Source of the DNA: Amblyomma americanum
Taxonomy: Eukaryota; Arthropoda; Arachnida; Ixodida; Ixodidae
NCBI RefSeq assembly: GCF_052857255.1
Contig: NW_027526709.1
Location: 1-64,000 of the forward strand
Length of the DNA stretch: 64,000 bases
Reading direction: 5' to 3'
Each line of letters opens with the position of its first letter. Positions within the stretch are counted from its first letter, which is position 1. The notes under the pieces are model-generated. The model ran no database searches. It saw only the letters and a program-made list of their open reading frames with translations, and was not told the origin of the DNA. A program made the position numbers and the translations under genes. Below, one piece after another: positions 6,843 through 64,000 of the stretch.

Positions 6843-6971
6843 CATCGGTTTTACAAGTGTTCCTCTGATACGCGTCAAAACTTTTTCTCTTATAACTGCG
6901 CGAAAAGCATGTATTCTTGCTTAATACAGCGAAACAAGCTGTTTTAGACCGAAACGAGCTAAATCACAACA
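6843..6971 (+). repeat. Exemplar consensus monomer (129 bp, ACGCGT type)
   Basis: This copy equals the consensus I read by eye for the commonest monomer. It has the variable box at 6,856-6,876 with ACGCGT at 6,870-6,875. An A4-C-T5 tract follows at 6,877-6,886, then TGCGCG at 6,897-6,902. By hand count it has 50 G+C of 129 (about 39%) and 8 CpG. Two short dyads lie in it: AAGCA/TGCTT at 6,905-6,922, and AGCTGTTT pairing with AAACgAGCT at 6,937-6,960 with one bulged G. The length is a multiple of three, which lets reading frames run through consecutive copies. Phase is by convention. Confidence 0.95.
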
Positions 6972-7260
6972 CATTGGTTTTACAAGTGTTCCTCTGATAC
7001 GCGTCAAAACTTTTTCTCTTATAACTGCGCGAAAAGCATGTATTCTTGCTTAATACAGCGAAACAAGCTGTTTTAGACCGAAATGAGCTAAATCACAACA
7101 CATCGGTTTTACAAGTTTTCCTCTGATACGCGTCAAAACTTTTTCTCGTATAACTGCGCGAAAAGCATGTATTCTTGCTTAATACAGCGAAACAAGCTGT
7201 TTTAGACCGAAACGAGCTAAATCACAACACATCGGTATTACAAGTGTTCCACGTGATACC

Positions 7261-40540: not shown

Positions 40541-41168
40541 CTCTCTAATACGCGTCAAAACTTTTTCTCTTATAACTGCGCGAAAAGCATGTATTCTTGC
40601 TTAATACAACGAAACAAGCTGTTTTAGACCAAAACGAGTTAAATCTGAACACATCGGTTTTACAAGTGTTCCTCTGATACGCGTCAAACTTTTTTCTCTT
40701 ATAACTGCGCGAAAAGCATGTATTCTTGCTTAGTCCAACGAAACAAGCTGTTTTAGACCGAAACGAGGTAAATCTGAACACATCGGTTTTACAAAGTGTC
40801 CCTTGTGACATGCCTTTAAAACTTTTTCTCTTATAACTGCGCGAAAAGCATGTATTCCTGCTTAATACAGCGAAACAAGCTGTTTTAGACCAAACGAGCT
40901 AAATCACAACACATCTGTTTTACAAATGTTCCTGATACGCGTCAAATTTTTTTCTCTTATAACTGCGCGAAAAGCATGTATTCTTGCTTAATACAGCGAA
41001 ACAAGCTGTTTTAGACCGAAACGAGCTAAATCACAACAAATCGGTTTTAGAAGTGTTCCTCTGATACGCGTCAACTCTTTTTTCTCTTATAGCTGCGCGA
41101 AAAGCATGTAATCGTGCTTAGTCCAACGAAACAAGCTGTTTTAGACCGAAACGAGGTAAATCTGAACA

Positions 41169-44140
41169 CATCGGTTTTACAAGTGTCCCTGTGACACGCG
41201 TCAAAACTTTTTCTCTTATAACTGCGCGAAAAGCATGTATTCTTGCTTAATACAGCGAAACAAGCTGTTTTAGACCGAAACGAGCTAAATCACAACACAT
41301 CGGTTTTACAAGTGTTCCTCTGATTACGCGTCTAAACTTTTTCTCTTATAACTGCGCGAAAAGCATGTACTCGTGCTAAATACAACGAAACAAGCTGTTC
41401 TAGACCGAAACGAGCTAAATCTGAACACATCGGTTTTACAAGTGTTCCTCTGATACGCGTCAAAACTTTTTTCTCTTATAACTGCGCGAAAAGCATGTAT
41501 TCTTGCTTAATACAGCGAAACAAGCTGTTTTAGACCGAAACGAGCTAATCACAACACATTGGTTTTACAAGTGTTCCTCTGATACGCCTCAAAACTTTTT
41601 CTCTTATAACTGCGCGAAAAGCATGTATTCTTGCTTAATACAGCGAAACAAGCTGTTTTAGACCGAAATGAGCTAAATCACAACACATCGGTTTTACAAG
41701 TGTTCCTCTGATACGCGTCAAAACTTTTTCTCTTATAACTGCGCGAAAAGCATGTATTCTTGCTTAATACAGCGAAACAAGCTGTTTTAGACCGAAACGA
41801 GCTAAATCACAACACATCGGTATTACAAGTGTTCCACGTGATACTCGTCAAAACTTTTTTTCTTAAAACTGCGCGAAAAGCATGTATTCGTGCTTAATAC
41901 AACAACACAAGCTCTTTTAGACCGAAACGAGCTAAATCTGAACACATCGGTTTTACAGGTATCCACGTGATACTCGTCAAAACTTTTTCTCTTTTAACTG
42001 CGCGAAAAGCATGTATTCTTGCTTAATACAACGAAACAAGCTGTTTAAGACCGAAACGAGCTAAATCACAACACATCGGTTTTTACAAGTGTCTCTCTAA
42101 TAAGCGTCAAAACTTTTTCTCTTATAACTGCGCGAAAAGCATGTATTCTTGCTTAATACAACGAAACAAGCTGTTTTAGAACGAAACGAGCTAAATCTGA
42201 ACACATCGGTTTTACAAGTATCCACGTGATACTCGTCAAAACTTTTTCTCTTATAACTGCGCGAAAAGCATGTATTCTTGCTTAATACAGCGAAACAAGC
42301 TGTTTTAGACCGAAATGAGCTAAATCACAACACATCGGTTTTACAAGTGTTCCTCTGATACGCGTCAAAACTTTTTCTCTTATAACTGCGCGAAAAGCAA
42401 GTATTCTTGCTTAATACAGCGAAACAAGCTGTTTTAGACCGAAACGAGCTAAATCACAACACATCGGTATTACAAGTGTTCCACGTGATACTCGTCAAAA
42501 CTTTTTCTCTTATAACTGCGCGAAAAGCATGTATTCTGCTTAATACAGCGAAACAAGCTGTTTTAGACCGAAACGAGCTAAATCACAACAAATCGGTTTT
42601 ACAAGTGTTCCTCTGATACGCGTCAACTCTTTTTTCCTCTTATAGCTGCGCGAAAAGCATGTATTCGTGCTTAGGCCAACGAAACAAGCTGTTTAGACCG
42701 GAAACGAGGTAAATCTGAACACATCGGTTTTACAAGTGTCCCTGTGACACGCCTTTAAAGCTTTTTCTCTTATCACTGCGCGAAAAGCATGTATTTCTGC
42801 TTAATACAGCGAAACAAGTTGTTTTAGACCGAAACGAGCTAAATCACAACACATCGGTTTTACAAGTGTTCCTCTGATACGCGTCTAAACTTTTTCTCTT
42901 ATAACTGCGCGAAAAGCATGTATTCGTGCTTAATACAACGAAACAAGCTGTTTTAGACTGAAACGAGCTAAATATGAACACATCGGTTTTACAAGTGTCC
43001 CTGTGACACTCGTCAAAACTTTTTCTCTTATAACTGCGCAAAAAGCATGTATTCTTGCTTAATACAGCGAAACAAGCTGTTTTAAACCGAAACGAGCTAA
43101 ATCACAACACATCACTATTACAAGTGTTCCACGTGATACTCGTCAAAACTTTTGCTCTTATAACTGCGCGAAAAGCATGTATTCGTGCTTAATACAACGA
43201 AACAAGCTGTTTTAGACCGAAACGAGTTTAATCTGAACACATCGGTTTTACAAGTATCCACGTGATACTCGTCAAAACTTTTTCTCTTATAACTGCGCGA
43301 AAAGCATGTATTCTTGCTTAATACAACGAAACAAGCTGTTTTAGACCGAAACGAGCTAAATCACAACACATCAATTTACAAGTGTTCTTGATACGCGTCA
43401 AAACTTTTTCTTCTATAACTGCGCGTAAAGCATGTACTCGTGCTTAATACAACGAAACAAGCTGTTTAGACCGAAACGAGCTAAATCTGAACACATCGGT
43501 TTTATAAGTGTTCCTCTAATACGCGTCAAAACTTTTTCTCTTATAACTGCGCGAAAAGCATGTATTCTTGCTTAATACAGCGAAACAAGCTGTTTTAGAC
43601 CGAAACGAGCTAAATCACAACACATCGGCTTTACAAGTGTTCCTCTGATACTCGTCAAAACTTTTTCTCTTATAACTGCGCGAAAAGCATGTATTCGTGC
43701 TTAATACAACGAAACAAGCTGTTTTTAGACCGAAACGAGCTTAATCTGAACACATCGGTTTTACAAGTATCCACGTGATACTCGTCAAAACTTTTTCTCT
43801 TATAACTGCGCGAAAAGCATGTATTCTTGCTTAATACAACGAAACAAGCTGTTTTAGACCGAAACGAGCTAAATCACAACACATCGGTTTTACAAGTGTC
43901 TCTCTAATACGCGTCAAAACTTTTTCTCTTATAACTGCGCGAAAAGCATGTATTCTTGCTTAATACAACGAAACAAGCTGTTTTAGACCAAAACGAGCTA
44001 AATCTGAACACATCGGTTTTACAAGTGTTCCTCTGATACGCGTCAAAACTTTTTTCTCTTATAACTGCGCGAAAAGCATGTATTCTTGCTTAGTCCAACG
44101 AAACAAGCTGTTTTAGACCGAAACGAGGTAAATCTGAACA
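41169..44140 (+). repeat. Higher-order repeat B, short copy (23 monomers)
   Basis: The unit starts at the GTGTCCCTGTGACACGCGTC monomer and contains in order the TGTACTCGTGCTAAATAC/TTCTAGACC monomer, the GATACGCCTCAAAAC monomer (41,581), the GCAAGTATTC monomer (42,397), the marker pair (about 42,590-42,850), AATATGAACAC (42,971) and ACATCACTATTAC (43,108). It is 2,972 bp, five monomers shorter than the next copies because its end goes straight to the next start without the ATGCCTTTAAAAC and second marker-pair section. Confidence 0.8.
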
Positions 44141-47100
44141 CATCGGTTTTACAAGTGTCCCTGTGACACGCGTCAAAACTTTTTCTCTTATAACTGCGCG
44201 AAAAGCATGTATTCTTGCTTAATACAGCGAAACAAGCTGTTTTAGACCGAAACGAGCTAAATCACAACACATCGGTTTTACAAGTGTTCCTCTGATACGC
44301 GTCTAAACTTTTTCTCTTATAACTGCGCGAAAAGCATGTACTCGTGCTAAATACGAACGAAACAAGCTGTTCTAGACCGAAACGAGCTAAATCTGAACAC
44401 ATCGGTTTTACAAGTGTTCCTCTGATACGCGTCAAAACTTTTTCTCTTATAACTGCGCGAAAAGCATGTATTCTTGCTTAATACAGCGAAACAAGCTGTT
44501 TTAGACCGAAACGAGCTAAATCACAACACATTGGTTTTACAAGTGTTCCTCTGATACGCCTCAAAACTTTTTCTCTTATAACTGCGCGAAAAGCATGTAT
44601 TCTTGCTTAATACAGCGAAACAAGCTGTTTTAGACCGAAATGAGCTAAATCACAACACATCGGTTTTACAAGTGTTCCTCTGATACGCGTCAAAACTTTT
44701 CTCTTATAACTGCGCGAAAACCATGTATTCTTGCTTAATACAGCGAAACAAGCTGTTTTAGACCGAAACGAGCTAAATCACAACACATCGGTATTACAAG
44801 TGTTCCACGTGATACTCGTCAAAACTTTTTTTCTTATAACTGCGCGAAAAGCATGTATTCGTGCTTAATACAACAAAACAAGCTGTTTTAGACCGAAACG
44901 AGCTAAATCTGAACACATCGGTTTTACAGGTATCCACGTTATACTCGTCAAAACTTTTTCTCTTTTAACTGCGCGAAAGCATGTATTCTTGCTTAATACA
45001 ACGAAACAAGCTGTTTAAGACCGAAACGAGCTAAATCACAACACATCGGTTTTACAAGTGTCTCTCTAATAAGCGTCAAAACTTTTTCTCTTATAACTGC
45101 GCGAAAAGCATGTATTCTTGCTTAATACAACGAAACAAGCTGTTTTAGACCGAAACGAGCTAAATCTGAACACATCGGTTTTACAAGTATCCACGTGATA
45201 CTCGTCAAAACTTTTTCTCTTATAACTGCGCGAAAAGCATGTATTCTTGCTTAATACAGCGAAACAAGCTGTTTTAGACCGAAATGAGCTAAATCACAAC
45301 ACATCGGTTTTTACAAGTGTTCCTCTGATACGCGTCAAAACTTTTTCTCTTATAACTGCGCGAAAAGCAAGTATTCTTGCTTAATACAGCGAAACAAGCT
45401 GTTTTAGACCGAAACGAGCTAAATCACAACACATCGGTATTACAAGTGTTCCACGTGATACTCGTCAAAACTTTTTCTCTTATAACTGCGCGAAAAGCAT
45501 GTATTCTTGCTTAATACAGCGAAACAAGCTGTTTTAGACCGAAACGAGCTAAATCACAACAAATCGGTTTTACAAGTGTTCCTCTGATACGCGTCAACTC
45601 TTTTTTCTCTTATAGCTGCGCGAAAAGCATGTATTCGTGCTTAGTCCAACGAAACAAGCTGTTTTAGACCGAAACGAGGTAAATCTGAACACATCGGTTT
45701 TACAAGTGTCCCTGTGACACGCCTTTAAAGCTTTTTCTCTTATCACTGCGCGAAAAGCATGTATTTCTGCTTAATACAGCGAAACAAGTTGTTTTAGACC
45801 GAAACGAGCTAAATCACAACACATCGGTTTTACAAGTGTTCCTCTGATACGCGTCTAAACTTTTTCTCTTATAACTGCGCGAAAAGCATGTATTCGTGCT
45901 TAATACAACGAAACAAGCTGTTTTAGACCGAAACGAGCTAAATATGAACACATCGGTTTTACAAGTGTCCCTGTGACACTCGTCAAAACTTTTTCTCTTA
46001 TAACTGCGCAAAAAGCATGTATTCTTGCTTAATACAGCGAAACAAGCTGTTTTAAACCGAAACGAGCTAAATCACAACACATCACTATTACAAGTGTTCC
46101 ACGTGATACTCGTCAAAACTTTTTCTCTTATAACTGCGCGAAAAGCATGTATTCGTGCTTAATACAACGAAACAAGCTGTTTTAGACCGAAACGAGTTTA
46201 ATCTGAACACATCGGTTTTACAAGTATCCACGTGATACTCGTCAAAACTTTTTCTCTTATAACTGCGCGAAAAGCATGTATTCTTGCTTAATACAACGAA
46301 ACAAGCTGTTTTAGACCGAAACGAGCTAAATCACAACACATCAATTTACAAGTGTTCTTGATACGCGTCAAAACTTTTTCTTCTATAACTGCGCGTAAAG
46401 CATGTACTCGTGCTTAATACAACGAAACAAGCTGTTTTAGACCGAAACGAGCTAAATCTGAACACATCGGTTTTATAAGTGTTCCTCTAATACGCGTCAA
46501 AACTTTTTCTCTTATAACTGCGCGAAAAGCATGTATTCTTGCTTAATACAGCGAAACAAGCTGTTTAGACCGAAACGAGCTAAATCACAACACATCGGCT
46601 TTACAAGTGTTCCTCTGATACTCGTCAAAACTTTTTCTCTTATAACTGCGCGAAAAGCATGTATTCGTGCTTAATACAACGAAACAAGCTGTTTTAGACC
46701 GAAACGAGCTTAATCTGAACACATCGGTTTTACAAGTATCCACGTGATACTCGTCAAAACTTTTTCTCTTATAACTGCGCGAAAAGCATGTATTCTTGCT
46801 TAATACAACGAAACAAGCTGTTTTAGACCGAAACGAGCTAAATCACAACACATCGGTTTTACAAGTGTCTCTCTAATACGCGTCAAAACTTTTTCTCTTA
46901 TAACTGCGCGAAAAGCATGTATTCTTGCTTAATACAACGAAACAAGCTGTTTTAGACCAAAACGAGCTAAATCTGAACACATCGGTTTTACAAGTGTTCC
47001 TCTGATACGCGTCAAAACTTTTTTCTCTTATAACTGCGCGAAAAGCATGTATTCTTGCTTAGTCCAACGAAACAAGCTGTTTTAGACCGAAACGAGGTAA

Positions 47101-47755
47101 ATCTGAACACATCGGTTTTACAAGTGTCCTTGTGACATGCCTTTAAAACTTTTTCTCTTATAACTGCGCGAAAAGCATGTATTCCTGCTTAATACAGCGA
47201 AACAAGCTGTTTTAGACCAAAACGAGCTAAATCACAACACATCGGTTTTACAAGTGTTCCTGATACGCGTCAAATTTTTTTCTCTATAACTGCGCGAAAA
47301 GCATGTATTCTTGCTTAATACAGCGAAACAAGTTGTTTTAGACCGAAACGAGCTAAATCACAACAAATCGGTTTTAGAAGTGTTCCTCTGATACGCGTCA
47401 ACTCTTTTTTCTCTTATAGCTGCGCGAAAAGCATGTATTCGTGCTTAGTCCAACGAAAGAAGCTGTTTTAGACCGAAACGAGGTAAATCTGAACACATCG
47501 GTTTTACAAGTGTCCCTGTGACACGCCTTTAAAAGCTTTTTCTCTTATCACTGCGCGAAAAGCATGTATTTCTGCTTAATACAGCGAAACAAGCTGTTTT
47601 TAGACCGAAACGAGCTAAATCACAACACATCGGTTTTACAAGTGTTCCTCTGATACGCGTCTAAACTTTTTCTCTTATAACTGCGCGAAAAGCATGTATC
47701 GTGCTTAATACAACGAAACAAGCTGTTTCAGACCGAAACGAGCTAAATCTGAACA
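44141..47755 (+). repeat. Higher-order repeat B, full copy 1 (28 monomers)
   Basis: This 3,615-bp unit has the marks GATACGCCTCAAAAC (44,559), TACAGGTATCC (44,925), GCAAGTATTC (45,367), the marker pair near 45,560-45,820, AATATGAACAC (45,941), ACATCACTATTAC (46,079), ACATCAATTTACAAG (46,339), CATGCCTTTAAAAC (47,136) and a second marker pair near 47,360-47,620. It is the best template for the long unit in this half of the window. Confidence 0.85.
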
Positions 47756-50700
47756 CATCGGTTTTACAAGTGTCCCTGTGACACGCGTCAAAACTTTTTC
47801 TCTTATAACTGCGCGAAAAGCATGTATTCTTGCTTAATACAGCGAAACAAGCTGTTTTAGACCGAAACGAGCTAAATCACAACACATCGGTTTTACAAGT
47901 GTTCCTCTGATACGCGTCTAAACTTTTTCTCTTATAACTGCGCGAAAAGCATGTACTCGTGCTAAATACAACGAAACAAGCTGTTCTAGACCGAAACGAG
48001 CTAAATCTGAACACATCGGTTTTACAAGTGTTCCTCTGATACGCGTCAAAACTTTTTCTCTTATAACTGCGCGAAAAGCATGTATTCTTGCTTAATACAG
48101 CGAAACAAGCTGTTTTAGACCGAAACGAGCTAAATCACAACACATTGGTTTTACAAGTGTTCTCTGATACGCCTCAAAACTTTTTCTCTTATAACTGCGC
48201 GAAAAGCATGTATTCTTGCTTAATACAGCGAAACAAGCTGTTTTAGACCGAAATGAGCTAAATCACAACACATCGGTTTTACAAGTGTTCCTCTGATACG
48301 CGTCAAAACTTTTTCTCTTATAACTGCGCGAAAAGCATGTATTCTTGCTTAATACAGCGAAACAAGCTGTTTTAGACCGAAACGAGCTAAATCACAACAC
48401 ATCGGTATTACAAGTGTTCCACGTGATACTCGTCAAAACTTTTTTTCTTATAACTGCGCGAAAAGCATGTATTCGTGCTTAATACAACAAAACAAGCTGT
48501 TTTAGACCGAAACGAGCTAAATCTGAACACATCGGTTTTACAGGTATCCACGTGATACTCGTCAAAACTTTTTCTCTTTTAACTGCGCGAAAAGCATGTA
48601 TTCTTGCTTAATACAACGAAACAAGCTGTTTAAGACCGAAACGAGCTAAATCACAACACATCGGTTTTACAAGTGTCTCTCTAATAAGCGTCAAAACTTT
48701 TTCTCTTATAACTGCGCGAAAAGCATGTATTCTTGCTTAATACAACGAAACAAGCTGTTTTAGACCGAAACGAGCTAAATCTGAACACATCGGTTTTACA
48801 AGTATCCACGTGATACTCGTCAAAACTTTTCTCTTATAACTGCGCGAAAAGCATGTATTCTTGCTTAATACAGCGAAACAAGCTGTTTTAGACCGAAATG
48901 AGCTAAATCACAACACATCGGTTTTACAAGTGTTCCTCTGATACGCGTCAAACTTTTTCTCTTATAACTGCGCGAAAAGCAAGTATTCTTGCTTAATACA
49001 GCGAAACAAGCTGTTTTAGACCGAAACGAGCTAAATCACAACACATCGGTATTACAAGTGTTCCACGTGATACTCGTCAAACTTTTTCTCTTATAACTGC
49101 GCGAAAAGCATGTATTCTTGCTTAATACAGCGAAACAAGCTGTTTTAGACCGAAACGAGCTAAATCACAACAAATCGGTTTTACAAGTGTTCCTCTGATA
49201 CGCGTCAACTCTTTTTCTCTTATAGCTGCGCGAAAAGCATGTATTCGTGCTTAGTCCAACGAAACAAGCTGTTTTAGACCGAAACGAGGTAAATCTGAAC
49301 ACATCGGTTTTACAAGTGTCCCTGTGACACGCCTTTAAAGCTTTTTCTCTTATCACTGCGCGAAAAGCATGTATTTCTGCTTAATACAGCGAAACAAGTT
49401 GTTTTAGACCGAAACGAGCTAAATCACAACACATCGGTTTTACAAGTGTTCCTCTGATACGCGTCTAAACTTTTTCTCTTATAACTGCGCGAAAAGCATG
49501 TATTCGTGCTTAATACAACGAAACAAGCTGTTTTAGACCGAAACGAGCTAAATATGAACACATCGGTTTTACAAGTGTCCCTGTGACACTCGTCAAAACT
49601 TTTTCTCTTATAACTGCGCAAAAAGCATGTATTCTTGCTTAATACAGCGAAACAAGCTGTTTTAAACCGAAACGAGCTAAATCACAACACATCACTATTA
49701 CAAGTGTTCCACGTGATACTCGTCAAAACTTTTTCTCTTATAACTGCGCGAAAAGCATGTATTCGTGCTTAATACAACGAAACAAGCTGTTTTAGACCGA
49801 AACGAGTTTAATCTGAACACATCGGTTTTACAAGTATCCACGTGATACTCGTCAAAACTTTTTCTCTTATAACTGCGCGAAAAGCATGTATTCTTGCTTA
49901 ATACAACGAAACAAGCTGTTTTAGACCGAAACGAGCTAAATCACAACACATCAATTTACAAGTGTTCTTGATACGCGTCAAAACTTTTTCTTCTATAACT
50001 GCGCGTAAAGCATGTACTCGTGCTTAATACAACGAAACAAGCTGTTTTAGACCGAAACGAGCTAAATCTGAACACATCGGTTTTATAAGTGTTCCTCTAA
50101 TACGCGTCAAAACTTTTTCTCTTATAACTGCGCGAAAAGCATGTATTCTTGCTTAATACAGCGAAACAAGCTGTTTTAGACCGAAACGAGCTAAATCACA
50201 ACACATCGGCTTTACAAGTGTTCCTCTGATACTCGTCAAAACTTTTTCTCTTATAACTGCGCGAAAAGCATGTATTCGTGCTTAATACAACGAAACAAGC
50301 TGTTTTAGACCGAAACGAGCTTAATCTGAACACATCGGTTTTACAAGTATCCACGTGATACTCGTCAAAACTTTTTCTCCTATAACTGCGCGAAAAGCAT
50401 GTATTCTTGCTTAATACAACGAAACAAGCTGTTTTAGACCGAAACGAGCTAAATCACAACACATCGGTTTTACAAGTGTCTCTCTAATACGCGTCAAAAC
50501 TTTTTCTCTTATAACTGCGCGAAAAGCATGTATTCTTGCTTAATACAACGAAACAAGCTGTTTTAGACCAAAACGAGCTAAATCTGAACACATCGGTTTT
50601 ACAAGTGTTCCTCTGATACGCGTCAAAACTTTTTTCTCTTATAACTGCGCGAAAAGCATGTATTCTTGCTTAGTCCAACGAAACAAGCTGTTTTAGACCG

Positions 50701-51362
50701 AAACGAGGTAAATCTGAACACATCGGTTTTACAAGTGTCCTTGTGACATGCCTTTAAAACTTTTTCTCTTATAACTGCGCGAAAAGCATGTATTCCTGCT
50801 TAATACAGCGAAACAAGCTGTTTTAGACCAAAACGAGCTAAATCACAACACATCGGTTTTACAAGTGTTCCTGATACGCGTCAAATTTTTTTCTCTTATA
50901 ACTGCGCGAAAGCATGTATTCTTGCTTAATACAGCGAAACAAGTTGTTTTAGACCGAACGAGCTAAATCACAACAAATCGGTTTTAGAAGTGTTCCTCTG
51001 ATACGCGTCAACTCTTTTTTCTCTTATAGCTGCGCGAAAAGCATGTATTCGTGCTTAGTCCAACGAAGAAGCTGTTTTAGACCGAAACGAGGTAAATCTG
51101 AACACATCGGTTTTACAAGTGTCCCTGTGACACGCCTTTAAAGCTTTTTCTCTTATCACTGCGCGAAAAGCATGTATTTCTGCTTAATACAGCGAAACAA
51201 GCTGTTTTAGACCGAAACGAGCTAAATCACAACACATCGGTTTTACAAGTGTTCTCTGATACGCGTCTAAACTTTTTCTCTTATAACTGCGCGAAAAGCA
51301 TGTATTCGTGCTTAATACAACGAAACAAGCTGTTTCAGACCGAAACGAGCTAAATCTGAACA
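47756..51362 (+). repeat. Higher-order repeat B, full copy 2 (28 monomers)
   Basis: This 3,607-bp unit has the same order of marks as 44,141-47,755, including GATACGCCTCAAAAC (48,169), TACAGGTATCC (48,539), GCAAGTATTC (48,978), AATATGAACAC (49,551), ACATCAATTTACAAG (49,949) and CATGCCTTTAAAAC (50,748). Differences are mostly single-base indels, such as GTCAAACTTTTTC near 48,948 and ACGAAGAAGCTG near 51,063. Confidence 0.85.
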
Positions 51363-53685
51363 CATCGTTTTACAAGTGTCCCTGTGACACGCGTCAAAAC
51401 TTTTTCTCTTATAACTGCGCGAAAAGCATGTATTCTTGCTTAATACAGCGAAACAAGCTGTTTTAGACCGAAACGAGCTAAATCACAACACATCGGTTTT
51501 ACAAGTGTTCCTCTGATACGCGTCTAAACTTTTTCTCTTATAACTGCGCGAAAAGCATGTACTCGTGCTAAATACAACGAAACAAGCTGTTCTAGACCGA
51601 AACGAGCTAAATCTGAACACATCGGTTTTACAAGTGTTCCTCTGATACGCGTCAAAACTTTTTCTCTTATAACTGCGCGAAAAGCATGTATTCTTGCTTA
51701 ATACAGCGAAACAAGCTGTTTTAGACCGAAACGAGCTAAATCACAACACATTGGTTTTACAAGTGTTCCTCTGATACGCCTCAAAACTTTTTCTCTTATA
51801 ACTGCGCGAAAAGCATGTATTCTTGCTTAATACAGCGAAACAAGCTGTTTTAGACCGAAATGAGCTAAATCACAACACATCGGTTTTACAAGTGTTCCTC
51901 TGATACGCGTCAAAACTTTTTCTCTTATAACTGCGCGAAAAGCATGTATTCTTGCTTAATACAGCGAAACAAGCTGTTTTAGACCGAAACGAGCTAAATC
52001 ACAACACATCGGTATTACAAGTGTTCCACGTGATACTCGTCAAAACTTTTTTTCTTATAACTGCGCGAAAAGCATGTATTCGTGCTTAATACAACAAAAC
52101 AAGCTGTTTTAGACCGAAACGAGCTAAATCTGAACACATCGGTTTTACAGGTATCCACGTGATACTCGTCAAAACTTTTTCTCTTATAACTGCGCGAAAA
52201 GCATGTATTCTTGCTTAATACAGCGAAACAAGCTGTTTTAGACCGAAATGAGCTAAATCACAACACATCGGTTTTACAAGTGTTCCTCTGATACGCGTCA
52301 AAACTTTTTCTCTTATAACTGCGCGAAAAGCAAGTATTCTTGCTTAATACAGCGAAACAAGCTGTTTTAGACCGAAACGAGCTAAATCACAACACATCGG
52401 TATTACAAGTGTTCCACGTGATACTCGTCAAAACTTTTTCTCTTATAACTGCGCGAAAAGCATGTATTCTTGCTTAATACAGCGAAACAAGCTGTTTTAG
52501 ACCGAAACGAGCTAAATCACAACAAATCGGTTTTACAAGTGTTCCTCTGATACGCGTCAACTCTTTTTTCTCTTATAGCTGCGCGAAAAGCATGTATTCG
52601 TGCTTAATACAACGAAACAAGCTGTTTTAGACCGAAACGAGCTAAATATGAACACATCGGTTTTACAAGTGTCCCTGTGACACTCGTCAAAACTTTTTCT
52701 CTTATAACTGCGCGAAAAGCATGTATTCTTGCTTAATACAACGAAACAAGCTGTTTTAGACCGAAACGAGCTAAATCACAACACATCGGTTTTACAAGTG
52801 TTCTTGATACGCGTCAAAACTTTTTCTTCTATAACTGCGCGTAAAGCATGTACTCGTGCTTAATACAACGAAACAAGCTGTTTTAGACCGAAACGAGCTA
52901 AATCTGAACACATCGGTTTTACAAGTGTTCCTCTAATACGCGTCAAAACTTTTTCTCTTATAACTGCGCGAAAAGCATGTATTCTTGCTTAATACAGCGA
53001 AACAAGCTGTTTTAGACCGAAACGAGCTAAATCACAACACATCGGCTTTACAAGTGTTCCTCTGATACGCGTCAAAACTTTTTCTCTTATAACTGCGCGA
53101 AAAGCATGTATTCTTGCTTAATACAGCGAAACAAGTTGTTTTAGACCGAAACGAGCTAAATCACAACACATCGGTATTACAAGTGTTCCACGTGATACTC
53201 GTCAAAACTTTTTCTCTTATAACTGCGCGAAAAGCATGTATTCGTGCTTAATACAACGAAACAAGCTGTTTTAGACCGAAACGAGCTTAATCTGAACACA
53301 TCGGTTTCACAAGTATCCACGTGATACTCGTCAAAACGTTTTCTCTTATAACTGCGCGAAAAGCATGTATTCTTGCTTAATACAACGAAACAAGCTGTTT
53401 TAGACCGAAACGAGCTAAATCACAACACATCGGTTTTACAAGTGTCTCTCTAATACGCGTCAAAACTTTTTCTCTTATAACTGCGCGAAAAGCATGTATT
53501 CTTGCTTAATACAACGAAACAAGCTGTTTTAGACCAAAACGAGCTAAATCTGAACACATCGGTTTTACAAGTGTTCCTCTGATACGCGTCTAAACTTTTT
53601 CTCTTATAACTGCGCGAAAAGCATGTATTCGTGCTTAATACAACGAAACAAGCTGTTTCAGACCGAAACGAGCTAAATCTGAACA
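51363..53685 (+). repeat. Higher-order repeat B, shortened copy (18 monomers)
   Basis: Starts like the full copies (GATACGCCTCAAAAC at 51,775, TACAGGTATCC at 52,147, GCAAGTATTC at 52,329) but skips whole monomers. After TACAGGTATCC it omits the TTTAAGACC, TCTCTCTAATAAG and TATCC monomers. After the AACTCTTTTTTCTC monomer it omits the CCTTTAAAG monomer and its neighbour. After AATATGAACAC (52,646) it omits ACATCACTATTAC. The CATGCCTTTAAAAC section is also missing. Total 2,323 bp, 18 monomers. Confidence 0.75.
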
Positions 53686-56524
53686 CATGGGTTTTACAAG
53701 TGTCCCTGTGACACGCGTCAAAACTTTTTCTCTTATAACTGCGCGAAAAGCATGTATTCTTGCTTAATACAGCGAAACAAGCTGTTTTAGACCGAAACGA
53801 GCTAAATCACAACACATCGGTTTTACAAGTGTTCCTCTGATACGCGTCTAAACTTTTTCTCTTATAACTGCGCGAAAAGCATGTACTCGTGCTAAATACA
53901 ACGAAACAAGCTGTTCTAGACCGAAACGAGCTAAATCTGAACACATCGGTTTTACAAGTGTTCCTCTGATACGCGTCAAAACTTTTTCTCTTATAACTGC
54001 GCGAAAAGCATGTATTCTTGCTTAATACAGCGAAACAAGCTGTTTTAGACCGAAACGAGCTAAATCACAACACATTGGTTTTACAAGTGTTCCTCTGATA
54101 CGCCTCAAAACTTTTTCTCTTATAACTGCGCGAAAAGCATGTATTCTTGCTTAATACAGCGAAACAAGCTGTTTTAGACCGAAATGAGCTAAATCACAAC
54201 ACATCGGTTTTACAAGTGTTCCTCTGATACGCGTCAAAACTTTTTCTCTTATAACTGCGCGAAAAGCATGTATTCTTGCTTAATACAGCGAAACAAGCTG
54301 TTTTAGACCGAAACGAGCTAAATCACAACACATCGGTATTACAAGTGTTCCACGTGATACTCGTCAAAACTTTTTCTCTTATAACTGCGCGAAAAGCATG
54401 TATTCGTGCTTAATACAACAAAACAAGCTGTTTTAGACCGAAACGAGCTAAATCTGAACACATCGGTTTTACAAGTATCCACGTGATACTCGTCAAAACT
54501 TTTTCTCTTATAACTGCGCGAAAAGCATGTATTCTTGCTTAATACAACGAAACAAGCTGTTTTAGACCGAAACGAGCTAAATCTGAACACATCGGTTTTA
54601 CAAGTATCCACGTGATACTCGTCAAAACTTTTTCTTTTATAACTGCGCGAAAAGCATGTATTCTTGCTTAATACAGCGAAACAAGCTGTTTTAGACCGAA
54701 ATGAGCTAAATCACAACACATCGGTTTTACAAGTTTTCCTCTGATACGCGTCAAAACTTTTTCTCTTATAACTGCGCGAAAAGCATGTATTCCTGCTTAA
54801 TACAGCGAAACAAGCTGTTTTAGACCAAAACGAGCTAAATCACAACACAACGGTTTTACAAGTGTTCCTGATACGTGTCAAATTTTTTTCTCTTATAACT
54901 GCGCGAAAAGCATGTATTCTTGCTTAATACAGCGAAACAAGTTGTTTTAGACCGAAACGAGCTAAATCACAACAAATCGGTTTTAGAAGTGTTCCTCTAA
55001 TACGCGTCAACTCTTTTTTCTCTTATAGCTGCGCGAAAAGCATGTATTCGTGCTTAGTCCAACGAAACAAGCTGTTTTAGACCGAAACGAGGTAAATCTG
55101 AACACATCGGTTTTACAAGTGTCCCTGTGACACGCCTTTAAAGCTTTTTCTCTTATCACTGCGCGAAAAGCATGTATTTCTGCTTAATACAGCGAAACAA
55201 GCTGTTTTAGACCGAAACGAGCTAAATCACAACACATCGGTTTTACAAGTGTTCCTCTGATACGCGTCTAAACTTTTTCTCTTATAACTGCGCGAAAAGC
55301 ATGTATTCGTGCTTAATACAACGAAACAAGCTGTTTCAGACCGAAACGAGCTAAATCTGAACACATCGGTTTTACAAGTGTCCCTGTGACACGCGTCAAA
55401 ACTTTTTCTCTTATAACTGCGCGAAAAGCATGTATTCTTGCTTAATACAGCGAAACAAGCTGTTTTAGACCGAAACGAGGTAAATCACAACACATCGGTT
55501 TTACAAGTGTTCCTCTGATACGCGTCTAAACTTTTTCTCTTATAACTGCGCGAAAAGCATGTACTCGTGCTAAATACAACGAAACAAGCTGTTCTAGACC
55601 GAAACGAGCTAAATCTGAACACATCGGTTTTACAAGTGTTCCTCTGATACGCGTCAAAACTTTTTCTCTTATAACTGCGCGAAAAGCATGTATTCTTGCT
55701 TAATACAGCGAAACAAGCTGTTTTAGACCGAAACGAGCTAAATCACAACACATCGGTATTACAAGTGTTCCACGTGATACTCGTCAAAACTTTTTCTCTT
55801 ATAACTGCGCGAAAAGCATGTATTCGTGCTTAATACAACAAAACAAGCTGTTTTAGACCGAAACGAGCTAAATCTAAACACATCGGTTTTACAAGTATCC
55901 ACGTGATACTCGTCAAAACTTCTCTTATAACTGCGCGAAAAGCATGTATTCTTGCTTAATACAACGAAACAAGCTGTTTTAGACCGAAACGAGCTAAATC
56001 TGAACACATCGGTTTTACAAGTATCCACGTGATACTCGTCAAAACTTTTTCTTTTATAACTGCGCGAAAAGCATGTATTCTTGCTTAATACAGCGAAACA
56101 AGCTGTTTTAGACCGAAATGAGCTAAATCACAACACATCGGTTTTACAAGTGTTCCTCTGATACGCGTCAAAACTTTTTCTCTTATAACTGCGCGAAAAG
56201 CATGTATTCTTGCTTAATACAGCGAAACAAGCTGTTTTAGACCGAAACGAGCTAAATCACAACACATCGGTATTACAAGTGTTCCAGGTGATACTCGTCA
56301 AAACTTTTTCTCTTATAACTGCGCGAAAAGCATGTATTCTTGCTTAATACAGCGAAACAAGCTGTTTTAGACCGAAACGAGCTAAATCACAACAAATCGG
56401 TTTTACAAGTGTTCCTCTGATACGCGTCAACTCTTTTTTCTCTTATAGCTGCGCGAAAAGCATGTATTCGTGCTTAGTCCAACGAAACAAGCTGTTTTAG
56501 ACCGAAACGAGGTAAATCTGAACA
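53686..56524 (+). repeat. Repeat B-related block with doubled TATCCACG monomers
   Basis: Begins with the repeat B start monomer (here CATGGG) and its GATACGCCTCAAAAC monomer (54,101). It then has two TATCCACGTG monomers in a row (from about 54,462 and 54,591), the second with TTTTTCTTTTATAAC. The same doubled arrangement recurs near 55,880, 57,040, 60,783 and 63,751, so this pair is a feature of the last 10 kb only. Marker pair near 54,975-55,230. A 4-base loss in the T tract (AAAACTTCTCTTATAAC) is at about 55,914. Confidence 0.75.
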
Positions 56525-58847
56525 CATCGGTTTTACAAGTGTCCCTGTGACACGCCTTTAAAGCTTTTTCTCTTATCACTGCGCGAAAAGCATGTATTTC
56601 TGCTTAATACAGCGAAACAAGCTGTTTTAGACCGAAACGAGCTAAATCACAACACATCGGTTTTACAAGTGTTCTTGATACGCGTCAAAACTTTTTCTTC
56701 TATAACTGCGCGTAAAGCATGTATTCGTGCTTAATACAACGAAACAAGCTGTTTTAGACCGAAACGATTTAAATCTGAACACATCGGTTTTACAAGTGTT
56801 CCTCTGATACGCGTCAAAACTTTTTCTCTTATAACTGCGCGAAAAGCATGTATTCTTGCTTAATACAGCGAAACAAGCTGTTTTAAACCGAAACGAGCTA
56901 AATCACAACACATCACTATTACAAGTGTTCCACGTGATACTCGTCAAAACTTTTTCTCTTATAACTGCGCGAAAAGCATGTATTCGTGCTTAATACAACG
57001 AAACAAGCTGTTTTAGACCGAAACGAGTTTAATCTGAACACATCGGTTTTACAAGTATCCACGTGATACTCGTCAAAACTTTTTCTCTTATAACTGCGCG
57101 AAAAGCATGTATTCTTGCTTAATACAACGAAACAAGCTGTTTTAGACCGAAACGAGCTAAATCTGAACACATCGGTTTTACAAGTATCCACGTGATACTC
57201 GTCAAAACTTTTTCTTTTATAACTGCGCGAAAAGCATGTATTCTTGCTTAATACAGCGAAACAAGCTGTTTTAGACCGAAATGAGCTAAATCACAACACA
57301 TCGGTTTTACAAGTGTTCCTCTGATACGCGTCAAAACTTTTTCTCTTATAACTGCGCGAAAAGCATGTATTCTTGCTTAATACAGCGAAACAAGCTGTTT
57401 TAGACCGAAACGAGCTAAATCACAACCCATCGGTATTACAAGCGTTCCAGGTGATACTCGTCAAAACTTTTTCTCTTATAACTGCGCGAAAAGCATGTAT
57501 TCTTGCTTAATACAGCGAAACAAGCTGTTTTAGACCGAAACGAGCTAAATCACAACAAATCGGTTTTACAAGTGTTCCTCTGATACGCGTCAACTCTTTT
57601 TTCTCTTATACCTGCGCGAAAAGCATGTATTCGTGCTTAGTCCAACGAAACAAGCTGTTTTAGACCGAAACGAGGTAAATCTGAACACATCGGTTTTACA
57701 AGTGTCCCTGTGACACGCCTTTAAAGCTTTTTCTCTTATCACTGCGCGAAAAGCATGTATTTCTGCTTAATACAGCGAAACAAGCTGTTTTAGACCGAAA
57801 CGAGCTAAATCACAACACATCGGTTTTACAAGTGTTCTTGATACGCGTCAAAACTTTTTCTTCTATAACTGCGCGTAAAGCATGTATTCGTGCTTAATAC
57901 AACGAAACAAGCTGTTTTAGACCGAAACGATTTAAATCTGAACACATCGGTTTTACAAGTGTTCCTCTGATACGCGTCAAAACTTTTTCTCTTATAACTG
58001 CGCGAAAAGCATGTATTCTTGCTTAATACAGCGAAACAAGCTGTTTTAAACCGAAACGAGCTAAATCACAACACATCACTATTACAAGTGTTCCACGTGA
58101 TACTCGTCAAAACTTTTTCTCTTATAACTGCGCGAAAAGCATGTATTCGTGCTTAATACAACGAAACAAGCTGTTTTAGACCGAAACGAGTTTAATCTGA
58201 ACACATCGGTTTTACAAGTATCCACGTGATACTCGTCAAAACTTTTTCTCTTATAACTGCGCGAAAAGCATGTATTCTTGCTTAATACAACGAAACAAGC
58301 TGTTTTAGACCGAAACGAGCTAAATCACAACACATCGGTTTTACAAGTGTTCTTGATACGCGTCAAAACTTTTTCTTCTATAACTGCGCGTAAAGCATGT
58401 ACTCGTGCTTAATACAACGAAACAAGCTGTTTTAGACCGAAACGAGCTAAATCTGAACACATCGGTTTTACAAGTGTTCCTCTAATACGCGTCAAAACTT
58501 TTTCTCTTATAACTGCGCGAAAAGCATGTATTCTTGCTTAATACAGCGAAACAAGCTGTTTTAGACCGAAACGAGCTAAATCACAACACATCGGCTTTAC
58601 AAGTGTTCCTCTGATACGCGTCAAAACTTTTTCTCTTATAACTGCGCGAAAAGCATGTATTCTTGCTTAATACAGCGAAACAAGTTGTTTTAGACCGAAA
58701 CGAGCTAAATCACAACAAATCGGTTTTACAAGTGTTCCTCTGATACGCGTCAACTCTTTTTTCTCTTATAGCTGCGCGAAAAGCATGTATTCGTGCTTAG
58801 TCCAACGAAACAAGCTGTTTTAGACCGAAACGAGGTAAATCTGAACA
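56525..58847 (+). repeat. Two 9-monomer units (1,163 and 1,160 bp)
   Basis: Successive CCTTTAAAG monomers start at 56,525, 57,688 and 58,848. Both units open with the same run: CCTTTAAAG, TTCTTGAT, a monomer preceded by the private mark CGATTTAAATCTG, ACATCACTATTAC, TATCCACG. Monomers 6 to 8 then differ. The first unit has a second TATCCACG, CTCTGAT and TTCCAGGTGATAC. The second has TTCTTGAT with TGTACTCG, CTCTAAT and CATCGGCTTTAC. Equal length with different contents points to exchange between units in whole monomers. Confidence 0.8.
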
Positions 58848-61430
58848 CATCGGTTTTACAAGTGTCCCTGTGACACGCCTTTAAAGCTTTTTCTCTTATC
58901 ACTGCGCGAAAAGCATGTATTTCTGCTTAATACAGCGAAACAAGCTGTTTTAGACCGAAACGAGCTAAATCACAACACATCGGTTTTACAAGTGTTCTTG
59001 ATACGCGTCAAAACTTTTTCTTCTATAACTGCGCGTAAAGCATGTATTCGTGCTTAATACAACGAAACAAGCTGTTTTAGACCGAAACGATTTAAATCTG
59101 AACACATCGGTTTTACAAGTGTTCCTCTGATACGCGTCAAAACTTTTTCTCTTATAACTGCGCGAAAAGCATGTATTCTTGCTTAATACAGCGAAACAAG
59201 CTGTTTTAAACCGAAACGAGCTAAATCACAACACATCACTATTACAAGTGTTCCACGTGATACTCGTCAAAACTTTTTCTCTTAAAAACTGCGCGAAAAG
59301 CATGTATTCGTGCTTAATACAACGAAACAAGCTGTTTTAGACCGAAACGAGTTTAATCTGAACACATCGGTTTTACAAGTATCCACGTGATACTCGTCAA
59401 AACTTTTTCTCTTATAACTGCGCGAAAAGCATGTATTCTTGCTTAATACAACGAAACAAGCTGTTTTAGACCGAAACGAGCTAAATCACAACACATCGGT
59501 TTTACAAGTGTTCTTGATACGCGTCAAAACTTTTTCTTCTATAACTGCGCGTAAAGCATGTACTCGTGCTTAATACAACGAAACAAGCTGTTTTAGACCG
59601 AAACGAGCTAAATCTGAACACATCGGTTTTACAAGTGTTCCTCTAATACGCGTCAAAACTTTTTCTCTTATAACTGCGCGAAAAGCATGTATTCTTGCTT
59701 AATACAGCGAAACAAGCTGTTTTAGACCGAAACGAGCTAAATCACAACACATCGGCTTTACAAGTGTTCCTCTGATACGCGTCAAAACTTTTTCTCTTAT
59801 AACTGCGCGAAAAGCATGTATTCTTGCTTAATACAGCGAAACAAGTTGTTTTAGACCGAAACGAGCTAAATCACAACACATCGGTATTACAAGTGTTCCA
59901 CGTAATACTCGTCAAAACTTTTTCTCTTATAACTGCGCGAAAAGCATGTATTCGTGCTTAATACAACGAAACAAGCTGTTTTAGACCGAAACGAGCTTAA
60001 TCTGAACACATCGGTTTTACAAGTATCCACGTGATACTCGTCAAAACTTTTTCTCTTATAACTGCGCGAAAAGCATGTATTCTTGCTTAATACAACGAAA
60101 CAAGCTGTTTTAGACCGAAACGAGCTAAATCACAACACATCGGTTTTACAAGTGTCTCTCTAATACGCGTCAAAACTTTTTCTCTTATAACTGCGCGAAA
60201 AGCATGTATTCTTGCTTAATACAACGAAACAAGCTGTTTTAGACCAAAACGAGCTAAATCTGAACACATCGGTTTTACAAGTGTTCCTCTGATACGCGTC
60301 TAAACTTTTTCTCTTATAACTGCGCGAAAAGCATGTATTCGTGCTTAATACAACGAAACAAGCTGTTTCAGACCGAAACGAGCTAAATCTGAACACATCG
60401 GTTTTACAAGTGTCCCTGTGACACGCGTCAAAACTTTTTCTCTTATAACTGCGCGAAAAGCATGTATTCTTGCTTAATACAGCGAAACAAGCTGTTTTAG
60501 ACCGAAATGAGCTAAATCACAACACATCGGTTTTACAAGTGTTCCTCTGATACGCGTCAAAACTTTTTCTCTTATAACTGCGCGAAAAGCATGTATTCTT
60601 GCTTAATACAGCGAAACAAGCTGTTTTAGACCGAAACGAGCTAAATCACAACACATCGGTATAACAAGTGTTCCACGTGATACTCGTCAAAACTTTTTCT
60701 CTTATAACTGCGCGAAAAGCATGTATTCGTGCTTAATACAACAAAACAAGCTGTTTTAGACCGAAACGAGCTAAATCTGAACACATCGGTTTTACAAGTA
60801 TCCACGTGATACTCGTCAAAACTTTTTCTCTTATAACTGCGCGAAAAGCATGTATTCTTGCTTAATACAACGAAACAAGCTGTTTTAGACCGAAACGAGC
60901 TAAATCTGAACACATCGGTTTTACAAGTATCCACGTGATACTCGTCAAAACTTTTTCTTTTATAACTGCGCGAAAAGCATGTATTCTTGCTTAATACAGC
61001 GAAACAAGCTGTTTTAGACCGAAATGAGCTAAATCACAACACATCGGTTTTACAAGTGTTCCTCTGATACGCGTCAAAACTTTTTCTCTTATAACTGCGC
61101 GAAAAGCATGTATTCTTGCTTAATACAGCGAAACAAGCTGTTTTAGACCGAAACGAGCTAAATCACAACACATCGGTATTACAAGTGTTCCAGGTGATAC
61201 TCGTCAAAACTTTTTCTCTTATAACTGCGCGAAAAGCATGTATTCTTGCTTAATACAGCGAAACAAGCTGTTTTAGACCGAAACGAGCTAAATCACAACA
61301 AATCGGTTTTACAAGTGTTCCTCTGATACGCGTCAACTCTTTTTTCTCTTATAGCTGCGCGAAAAGCATGTATTCGTGCTTAGTCCAACGAAACAAGCTG
61401 TTTTAGACCGAAACGAGGTAAATCTGAACA
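58848..61430 (+). repeat. 20-monomer unit sharing the CGATTTAAATCTG opening
   Basis: This unit starts with the same run as the 9-monomer units (CGATTTAAATCTG near 59,088, ACATCACTATTAC near 59,232) but continues for 2,583 bp before the next CCTTTAAAG monomer at 61,431. It contains the CATCGGCTTTAC, TCTCTCTAAT, TTTCAGACC, doubled TATCCACG and TTCCAGGTG monomers. It looks like the two 9-monomer arrangements joined with extra monomers between. Confidence 0.75.
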
Positions 61431-61560
61431 CATCGGTTTTACAAGTGTCCCTGTGACACGCCTTTAAAGCTTTTTCTCTTATCACTGCGCGCAAAGCATG
61501 TATTTCTGCTTAATACAGCGAAACAAGCTGTTTTAGACCGAAACGAGCTAAATCACAACA

Positions 61561-61819
61561 CATCGGTTTTACAAGTGTTCCTCTGATCCAATACACTGTG
61601 TAGCGCAGCAAAAGACGAGGACACAAGAGACGAGAGACGAACACCACGAGCGCTCGTGGTGTTCGTCTCTCGTCTCTTGTGTCCTCGTCTTTTGCTGCGC
61701 TACACAGTGTATTGGATACTCGTCAAAACTTTTTCTCTTATAACTGCGCGAAAAGCATGTATTCTTGCTTAATACAACGAAACAAGCTGTTTTAGACCGA
61801 AACGAGCTAAATCACAACA
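61561..61819 (+). repeat. Monomer interrupted by the palindrome
   Basis: CATCGG starts at 61,561 and next at 61,820, a spacing of 259, which is one 129-bp monomer plus 130 bp. The left part follows a CCTTTAAAG/TATTTCTGC monomer and reads GTGTTCCTCTGAT. The right part reads ACTCGTCAAAAC with ATTCTTGCTTAATACAACG. A hybrid monomer GTTCCTCTGATACTCGTC exists uninterrupted elsewhere (near 10,981, 22,980, 43,638, 46,612 and 50,220), so the interrupted site needs no extra deletion. Confidence 0.8.
61586..61717. repeat. Perfect 132-bp palindrome inserted in one monomer (foldback/MITE-like)
   Basis: This is the only non-satellite sequence in the window. The arms 61,586-61,651 and 61,652-61,717 are exact reverse complements over 66 nt, with no spacer (centre AGC|GCT). 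The outer bases are ATCCAATACACTG and CAGTGTATTGGAT. Each arm holds TACACtGTGTA, itself a short inverted repeat (61,592-61,602, mirrored at 61,701-61,711), and a 50-nt run with no T on the + strand in the left arm (61,602-61,651). Removing 61,588-61,717 rejoins CTCTGAT to ACTCGTC and leaves a normal 129-bp monomer, consistent with a 128-bp insertion and a 2-bp AT duplication. The AT could equally belong to the palindrome. There is no coding capacity. It could be a non-autonomous foldback element, an inverted-dimer capture event or a technical artefact. Confidence 0.85.
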
Positions 61820-62334
61820 CATCGGTTTTACAAGTGTTCTTGATACGCGTCAAAACTTTTTCTTCTATAACTGCGCGTAAAGCATGTACTCGTGCTTAAT
61901 ACAACGAAACAAGCTGTTTTAGACCGAAACGAGCTAAATCTGAACACATCGGTTTTACAAGTGTTCCTCTAATACGCGTCAAAACTTTTTCTCTTATAAC
62001 TGCGCGAAAAGCATGTATTCTTGCTTAATACAGCGAAACAAGCTGTTTTAGACCGAAACGAGCTAAATCACAACACATCGGCTTTACAAGTGTTCCTCTG
62101 ATACGCGTCAAAACTTTTTCTCTTATAACTGCGCGAAAAGCATGTATTCTTGCTTAATACAGCGAAACAAGTTGTTTTAGACCGAAACGAGCTAAATCAC
62201 AACACATCGGTATTACAAGTGTTCCACGTGATACTCGTCAAAACTTGTTCTCTTATAACTGCGCGAAAAGCATGTATTCGTGCTTAATACAACGAAACAA
62301 GCTGTTTTAGACCGAAACGAGCTAAATCACAACA

Positions 62335-63108
62335 CATCGGTTTTACAAGTGTCTCTCTAATACGCGTCAAAACTTTTTCTCTTATAACTGCGCGAAAAGC
62401 ATGTATTCTTGCTTAATACAACGAAACAAGCTGTTTTAGACCAAAACGAGCTAAATCTGAACACATCGGTTTTACAAGTGTTCCTCTGATACGCGTCTAA
62501 ACTTTTTCTCTTATAACTGCGCGAAAAGCATGTATTCGTGCTTAATACAACGAAACAAGCTGTTTCAGACCGAAACGAGCTAAATCTGAACACATCGGTT
62601 TTACAAGTGTCCCTGTGACACGCGTCAAAACTTTTTCTCTTATAACTGCGCGAAAAGCATGTATTCTTGCTTAATACAACGAAACAAGCTGTTTTAGACC
62701 GAAACGAGCTAAATCACAACACATCGGTTTTACAAGTGTCTCTCTAATACGCGTCAAAACTTTTTCTCTTATAACTGCGCGAAAAGCATGTATTCTTGCT
62801 TAATACAACGAAACAAGCTGTTTTAGACCAAAACGAGCTAAATCTGAACACATCGGTTTTACAAGTGTTCCTCTGATACGCGTCTAAACTTTTTCTCTTA
62901 TAACTGCGCGAAAAGCATGTATTCGTGCTTAATACAACGAAACAAGCTGTTTCAGACCGAAACGAGCTAAATCTGAACACATCGGTTTTACAAGTGTCCC
63001 TGTGACACGCGTCAAAACTTTTTCTCTTATAACTGCGCGAAAAGCATGTATTCTTGCTTAATACAGCGAAACAAGCTGTTTTAGACCGAAACGAGCTAAA
63101 TCACAACA
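62335..63108 (+). repeat. Tandem pair of 387-bp (3-monomer) units
   Basis: Units 62,335-62,721 and 62,722-63,108 each hold a TCTCTCTAAT monomer followed by GACCAAAACG, a TCTAAAC monomer followed by TTTCAGACC, and a CCCTGTGACACGCG monomer. The only clear difference I see is TACAACG versus TACAGCG in the third monomer. The junction is in register. This is the smallest clear tandem duplication I found in the window. Confidence 0.85.
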
Positions 63109-64000
63109 CATCGGTTTTACAAGTGTTCCTCTGATACGCGTCTAAACTTTTTCTCTTATAACTGCGCGAAAAGCATGTACTCGTGCTAAATACAACGAAA
63201 CAAGCTGTTCTAGACCGAAACGAGCTAAATCTGAACACATCGGTTTTACAAGTGTTCCTCTGATACGCGTCAAAACTTTTTCTCTTATAACTGCGCGAAA
63301 AGCATGTATTCTTGCTTAATACAGCGAAACAAGCTGTTTTAGACCGAAACGAGCTAAATCACAACACATTGGTTTTACAAGTGTTCCTCTGATACGCCTC
63401 AAAACTTTTTCTCTTATAACTGCGCGAAAAGCATGTATTCTTGCTTAATACAGCGAAACAAGCTGTTTTAGACCGAAATGAGCTAAATCACAACACATCG
63501 GTTTTACAAGTGTTCCTCTGATACGCGTCAAAACTTTTTCTCTTATAACTGCGCGAAAAGCATGTATTCTTGCTTAATACAGCGAAACAAGCTGTTTTAG
63601 ACCGAAACGAGCTAAATCACAACACATCGGTATTACAAGTGTTCCACGTGATACTCGTCAAAACTTTTTCTCTTATAACTGCGCGAAAAGCATGTATTCG
63701 TGCTTAATACAACAAAACAAGCTGTTTTAGACCGAAACGAGCTAAATCTGAACACATCGGTTTTACAAGTATCCACGTGATACTCAAAACTTTTTCTCTT
63801 ATAACTGCGCGAAAAGCATGTATTCTTGCTTAATACAACGAAACAAGCTGTTTTAGACCGAAACGAGCTAAATCTGAACACATCGGTTTTACAAGTATCC
63901 ACGTGATACTCGTCAAAACTTTTTCTTTTATAACTGCGCGAAAAGCATGTTTTCTTGCTTAATACAGCGAAACAAGCTGTTTTAGACCGAAATGAGCTAA
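63109..64000 (+). repeat. Repeat B-related end of window
   Basis: The order TGTACTCG/TTCTAGACC, CTCTGAT, CATTGG with GATACGCCTC (63,390), GAAATGAGC, TATTAC-CACGTG, then two TATCCACG monomers matches about 53,815-54,710. There is a 3-base loss at GATACTCAAAAC (about 63,780). The last monomer starts at 63,881 and is cut at base 120 by the window end, so the array continues beyond it. Confidence 0.8.

Follow-up and report, generated by a model that had tools for sequence, protein, structure and literature searches.

A perfect palindrome in satellite DNA of the tick Amblyomma americanum is the remnant of a Penelope-like element insertion

Penelope-like elements (PLEs) form a third class of eukaryotic retroelements that is little understood; a hammerhead motif in the pLTR is frequent among them and is not required. 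The published marks of the group are pLTRs, tandem units, a tail of 30–40 bp, inverted pLTRs and short target duplications (PMC3846280, PMC8969392, PMC11167929). Two described systems come closest to the tick family reported here. Like that family, Penelope of Adineta vaga has an ORF with RT and GIY-YIG domains, pLTRs, an inverted pLTR at the other end and palindromes at the inverted junction, and its optional 31-bp tail and its duplications of 8–10 bp also have counterparts in the tick, as far as the available text of the rotifer study describes them (PMC3846280). Poseidon of Anolis carolinensis, studied in vitro, has two internal start sites of reverse transcription and a tail that is the interval between them, as the tick family appears to have; the available text reports that the purified protein cuts and extends both target strands and that the two internal start sites are adjacent (PMC11167929). 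How PLEs come to have head-to-head inverted copies is unsettled in the parts of these sources available to us: self-priming was proposed in 2013 (PMC3846280), and the in vitro work of 2024 left the steps after initiation open (PMC11167929). In the literature as far as it could be searched, “penelope-like” did not occur together with “twin priming”, though subscription papers may discuss the mechanism. PLEs with inverted pLTRs are already known; a tick family whose short palindromes have no spacer is apparently a new member of this group.

The DNA analyzed here, called the window, is a stretch of 64,000 nucleotides (C237:1-64000) from an A. americanum genome of 2.56 Gb and 429 contigs. According to TRF, the entire window is one 129-bp tandem array. 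Within it lies a perfect palindrome of 132 nt (61586-61717), whose arms of 66 nt each (61586-61651 and 61652-61717) are 100% complementary and meet with zero spacer, just as the original prediction described. It is the one zero-spacer palindrome with arms of at least 7 nt in the window, and the longest such arms in 30 first-order Markov sequences of window length reached 7–10 nt. Among stretches made up of 14-mers that the window contains once, 61575-61727 is the longest, with 140 words against 18–22 in the four others listed, and none of the 10-mers of the palindrome recurs anywhere else within the window. The claim that the palindrome is the only foreign sequence in 64 kb holds inside the window, but two further copies lie just past its edge on the same contig (C237:64554 and C237:67697). 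A nested near-dyad, TACACtGTGTA, had been pointed out close to the end of each arm, where transposase sites often lie; it is present in both arms but unneeded, as a 2-bp shorter subfamily in which the dyad is broken (CACTGTAGC) is still palindromic.

As single-stranded DNA with short flanks, the palindrome folds at -86.9 kcal/mol, against a shuffle mean of -20.9. An RNA gene was considered and rejected: the Rfam matches come from many families that are unrelated to each other, involve both strands in most cases and all stay under the gathering scores, as expected of a long perfect hairpin. Prokaryotic, phage or plasmid relatives were likewise rejected, with no phage or plasmid matches to the palindrome. 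Exact matches numbered 0 each for a 20-mer of the arm in viral contigs, a 25-mer of the arm in genome contigs and a 26-mer of the satellite in viral contigs, and the 28 viral contigs that contain an exact 15-mer of the arm agree with it at only 22–32 of its 66 positions.

A search of the window's own genome for the palindrome, of the kind proposed with the original prediction, found many copies with short target duplications. At least 41 places (40 scored of 446 candidates), the window copy included, lie on C1-C10 and C237, and the sister palindromes are spread across large contigs, most with duplications, so that the expected dispersed mobile family with target-site duplications exists. Of the 40 other places 33 were fetched, leaving aside six in arrays on C5 and C6 and one inside L049. 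All 33 bear a tail (ACTATGTACCAACAAGCCCAAAAAGCCACGCTACTGA) of up to 37 nt, whole or slightly shortened, on one side of the palindrome. Because this tail is one-sided in every fetched sister, the element is asymmetric and consists of a left arm, a right arm and a tail. A 30-mer of the tail has 193 exact occurrences in the genome, and its reversed control has 0. The analysis covered fifty of these 193 tail places, taken along the genome between C1 and the early part of C3, and at many of them the right arm is the end of a longer sequence.

Target-site duplications were scored from words shared by the two flanks, which may contain a few bases of microhomology. Of the 48 copies, 38 have a word of at least 8 nt in common between their flanks; among mismatched left–right pairs this is so for 8 of 2256. 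The duplications vary from 8 to 14 nt and are mostly of 9–14, with 11 nt the commonest length, and among the ten copies that have no such word several show a duplication by eye, for example L094 (GTACATGGTAT) and, with a mismatch, L075 and L052. Where several copies had one right flank in common, a single one entered this set of 48 and likewise a set of 28 from the palindrome search; the 48 still includes both L087 and L088, whose tails belong to one place.

The two copies just past the window explain how the window copy came to look different from its sisters. Both are tailed and have TCCTCTGAT on either side, and they lie 3.0 and 6.1 kb downstream on C237. Their flanks are mutually identical over 900 of 900 bases on each side. 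The left flank of the window copy aligns to them with 894 identities, 3 mismatches and 6 gap positions, and its palindrome also matches theirs. What the window copy does not have is a stretch of 433 bp, from the GA of the palindrome-terminal GGA to GATACTCG several monomers further; beyond this gap its right flank again matches the tailed sisters, at 400 of 400 bases. Since the dispersed copies all have the tail, the direction of the change was tail loss in the window copy and not tail gain in the others. The simplest account is a single insertion that was amplified along with the satellite array, one descendant of which, the window copy, lost its tail. The coordinates of the resulting features are collected in Table 1.

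Table 1. Features of the window around the palindrome (positions are those of the window; a dot marks a feature without strand)
Feature	Position	Strand	Basis
129-bp satellite array, left flank	1..61578	+	TRF
Target-site duplication of 9 bp (TCCTCTGAT) from the original insertion, left copy	61579..61587	+	Both copies flank the tailed sisters C237:64554 and C237:67697; right copy lost by deletion
Left arm: pLTR end of the Penelope-like element in antisense, beginning where pLTR and tail meet	61588..61651	-	Comparison with sister copies
Self-complementary centre AGCGCT, supposed pairing point of two cDNA ends	61649..61654	.	Sequence; shared exactly by 15 of the 28 distinct sister palindromes
Right arm, a sense copy of the same pLTR end, without the 37-nt tail seen in sisters	61652..61716	+	Sister comparison
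Junction of the 433-bp deletion, with 2-bp (GA) microhomology; tail, right target duplication and several satellite monomers gone	61715..61716	+	Alignment to sisters
129-bp satellite array, right flank; first 400 bases equal C237:65117-65516 exactly	61717..64000	+	TRF and alignment

This history bears directly on the foldback or MITE-like DNA element that had been suggested first. Seen alone, the window copy has inverted repeats, AT at both ends and gap-free empty sites: when the insert and one AT are removed, the remainder aligns to other sites of the array, with the join gap-free in three of five alignments shown and a 2-nt gap a few bases to its left in the other two. It thereby resembles a palindromic element with an AT duplication such as ISL2EU or ATon, the latter a small, non-coding element of Aedes aegypti with terminal inverted repeats according to the available text (PMC3422177). 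ATon (PMC3422177) and ISL2EU (PMC4482050) are described there as inserting at AT, whereas the window copy only appears to do so. Because the 433-bp deletion made the junction, the AT repeat at the ends of the palindrome is a by-product and no target-site duplication, and the tailed sisters together with the deletion junction rule out an AT-target DNA transposon for this copy. The family as a whole also lies outside ATon and ISL2EU: its duplications are longer and vary between 8 and 14 nt instead of having a fixed length, its tail is one-sided in 33 of 33 fetched sisters, its long copies have RT and EN, and its arm with the tail forms the 3' end of an element encoding RT and a GIY-YIG endonuclease. 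With the deletion accounting for the window copy, we give an origin as a MITE or foldback transposon practically no credence.

Perfect palindromes can be artefacts of assembly or library preparation. For this palindrome such an origin is very improbable. Both of its flanks hold their orientation and continue into intact satellite, the sisters elsewhere carry duplications of their own, and the tailed insertion is present twice more on C237.

The palindrome arm and the 37-nt tail are the 3' end of a Penelope-like retrotransposon, and the window palindrome is what is left of a short PLE insertion into A. americanum satellite DNA. Longer copies contain ORFs that match RVT_1 at E 8e-7 and 1e-6, just under the Pfam cut-off. 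A search with a 344-aa ORF piece of L105 returned 123 proteins, and the organism names among the matches listed are those of ticks. When this piece and 37 relatives were aligned, RVT_1 was found in 28 of the 38 members and GIY-YIG (PF01541) in 4 of the 38 (best E 0.00095); in the tick ORF pieces themselves Pfam gave no GIY-YIG match. Against solved structures, the profile matched group II intron RTs best (from 2.2e-7), and telomerase chains (E 0.002–0.003) came behind these and other RTs. The predicted structure of the tick piece has a mean pLDDT of 87.5 and a pTM of 0.47. Used in Foldseek, it gave no match at E <=0.001; HIV RT chains weakly occupy most of the top rows, and at rank 38 stands the catalytic domain of the GIY-YIG endonuclease I-TevI (probability 0.90, TM 0.66 of target).

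The architecture of the longer copies agrees with this assignment. A long insertion at L105:2685-5872 has an inverted left part, which begins at 2685, together with a pLTR-ORF-pLTR unit in sense orientation and a tail at 5837; its ORF is split over two overlapping frames, and an 11-nt duplication (ATAAGTATCTA) stands at both insertion ends. Units in tandem or partial tandem and pLTRs are present in L105, L104 and L102, and inverted pLTRs and short target duplications of variable length are present in the family. No hammerhead family was found at E <=0.1 in six tick loci, whereas Anolis Poseidon is described as having a hammerhead ribozyme (PMC11167929). In L105 the sense reading passes through the tail into the ORF as ...GTMYQQAQKATLL..., and the tail likely contains the start codon; in Anolis Poseidon, by contrast, the common start is given as 111–118 bp into the ORF (PMC11167929). 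The Adineta vaga copies, as far as they are described in the available text, are larger (PMC3846280), whereas many tick insertions are a spacerless palindrome and tail alone, one of them amplified in satellite.

In these small copies the starts of the two arms can be read directly. Relative to the tail, the left arm of 44 of the 48 copies starts at -5 to +11 (site 2). The other four rows (L039, L071 and L087/L088, the last two being two tails at one place) have this start at +33 or +34, and no left arm starts in the interval. All 48 right ends fall within +30 to +37 (site 1), where +37 is the limit of the aligned tail. While these 48 were partly selected by the tail, the 28 copies from the palindrome search were selected without it, and 27 of them have mixed start sites, with one (L039) running off the fetched DNA and 0 having site 2 at both ends. 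A free choice of site on each side allows at most half to be mixed, and 27 of 28 is beyond this. The +33/+34 outliers run on into the PLE body on one side. Site 1 at both ends was considered for L039, L063, L071, L087/L088 and L091 and rejected, since one side continues into the PLE body in each; L102, which is the place of L087/L088, is the one followed to both ends, and the rest run off the fetched DNA. Of the copies followed to both ends, L102 has site 2 on the left and site 1 on the right, and L104 is its mirror, with site 1 on the left and site 2 on the right. One site per side differs from what the available text on Anolis Poseidon holds, in which no strand difference in start sites is reported; there the start sites of top and bottom strand are alike in bulk, which speaks against one site per strand (PMC11167929).

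The two arms of a copy also resemble each other in ways that bear on the number of templates. The 2-bp indel that separates the subfamilies is concordant between arms in 28 of 28 distinct palindromes (12 long, 16 short) and, in a second set, in all 24 scorable rows, equal to 22 of 22 places (7 of 31 rows were not scorable); the two sets, of 28 and 22 places, overlap by six places. In L075, L083 and L096 the long arms differ by 0.14–0.29%, against between-copy medians of 2.0–2.5%. Among the other long-armed copies, eight in total with these three, L069 and L078 are under the between-copy median, L091 is slightly under it, and L118 and L119 are slightly over. A dimer of the protein, as predicted in the 2024 study (PMC11167929), could carry two RNAs, and the two cDNAs would then come from two different RNA molecules. 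Random pairing of two types would give agreement in about half of the copies, and the long arms of L075, L083 and L096 are closer to each other than to other copies, although two RNAs of one source locus escape this test. We consider two RNA molecules distinctly improbable; a single RNA is suggested because the subfamily type agrees between arms wherever it can be scored.

The inner ends of the arms bear on whether the second arm was copied from RNA or from the first arm. They were taken as BLAST ends, accurate to a few nt, in 22 copies: 24 rows less L085, whose flank is the same as that of L084, and L078, the source of the reference. In the remaining 26 of the 50 tail places the left arm was not seen, ran off the fetched DNA or belonged to an apparent double-site-1 case. 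In 7 of the 22 copies the two inner ends coincide to within 3 nt. In the other 15 the difference exceeds 3 nt; the left arm is the longer one in 11 of these and the right arm in 4. Self-priming, in which a single cDNA folds back and copies itself, was inferred in 2013 from the palindromes at inverted junctions of rotifer Penelope, on an antisense template there (PMC3846280). Identical arms need no second priming event under it, and the 7 copies with equal inner ends are in its favour. The left arms, on the other hand, often contain sequence missing from the right arm (348 against 85 nt in L074, and likewise in L124, L108 and L096), although deletions at the palindrome centre could mimic this; L104 has a site-1 arm of about 215 nt, and its other side spans more than one unit. 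A cDNA running back on itself should, moreover, include the tail, yet left arms begin about 37 nt inside. We therefore regard self-priming as unlikely, though the most plausible of the alternatives, and a simple snap-back origin of the sisters was rejected for the same reason, that left arms can have sequence that right arms do not. Barring later deletions at the palindrome centre, which could also make arms unequal, the surplus in the left arm argues for two cDNAs over a fold-back. Whereas self-priming was proposed for Adineta vaga (PMC3846280), the tick copies, judged by their sequences, appear to favour two cDNAs, one per target strand and both on one RNA.

The reading that we consider fairly probable is thus a PLE insertion whose palindrome came from two cDNAs made on one RNA and joined head to head, with the window copy arising later by tail loss. 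The PLE protein would cut the two strands of the target at positions about 11 bp from each other. One cDNA would begin on each cut strand, at two RNA sites 37 nt apart around the start codon that are the presumed starts of reverse transcription in the tick. Both cDNAs would be templated by a single RNA molecule and extend towards its 5' end, and their 3' ends would be joined head to head. On an ordinary mRNA, copying would end at the leader start, which may lie near AGCGCT. Two identical cDNA ends could then pair via this self-complementary stretch, and fill-in would give a perfect palindrome without spacer, while longer RNAs would give longer head-to-head repeats.

Several observations on the inner ends are relevant to this centre. 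The inner end of the left arm falls between -76 and -57 in 15 of the 22 copies, and L070, L072 and L073, in which no left arm was seen, start at -62 to -76. This preferred stop suggests, as a simple reading, that the 5' end of the PLE mRNA is near AGCGCT, which comes shortly after AATAAAAT. The exact AGCGCT centre is found in 15 of the 28 palindromes from the genome search, copies that were selected by similarity to the window palindrome. AGCGCT is proposed as the join because pairing between two identical cDNAs requires self-complementary sequence, which AGCGCT provides.

Two cDNAs on one RNA permit a broader hypothesis, which we hold with somewhat less than even confidence. PLE insertion may be an obligate double-strand reaction on one RNA, in which two enzyme units each take one start site and one nicked end; spacerless palindromes would be dead-end products of ordinary mRNA run-off, and productive copies would need read-through RNAs from tandem units. 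If this is true, a single reaction accounts for the tail and the pLTR as well as for inverted copies and short palindromes. The A. americanum genome offers many small insertions that show, side by side, the two start sites, the ends of both cDNAs and the target duplication, and these point to one start per side and one RNA. They also indicate that a perfect palindrome can originate by retrotransposition and later be amplified and trimmed within satellite DNA.

The satellite array has its own record of amplification. In window 8001-15120 a block is duplicated 4120 bases apart, with 100% identity over three successive 1-kb windows (8001-11000 against 12121-15120), and window 45001-52000 contains another local duplication, 99–99.8% identical, at about 3.61 kb. 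The latter and the 3143-bp repeat past the window edge suggest that the array underwent repeated segmental amplification. Elsewhere in the genome, palindromic copies stand at regular spacing at C6:152987526-153111182 (at least eight places) and at C5:93321554-93334478 (at least three), which indicates that the element is present in other amplified arrays too. Three single loci have unusual structures. L103:2082-2203 is another long hairpin, which several microRNA families match on both strands, below gathering scores. L116 (C2:206092500-206094200) has the tail twice in tandem, almost without an arm, and L049 (C8:30041103-30042287) has two tandem antisense left parts before the sense arm and tail, as if there had been an extra round of copying.
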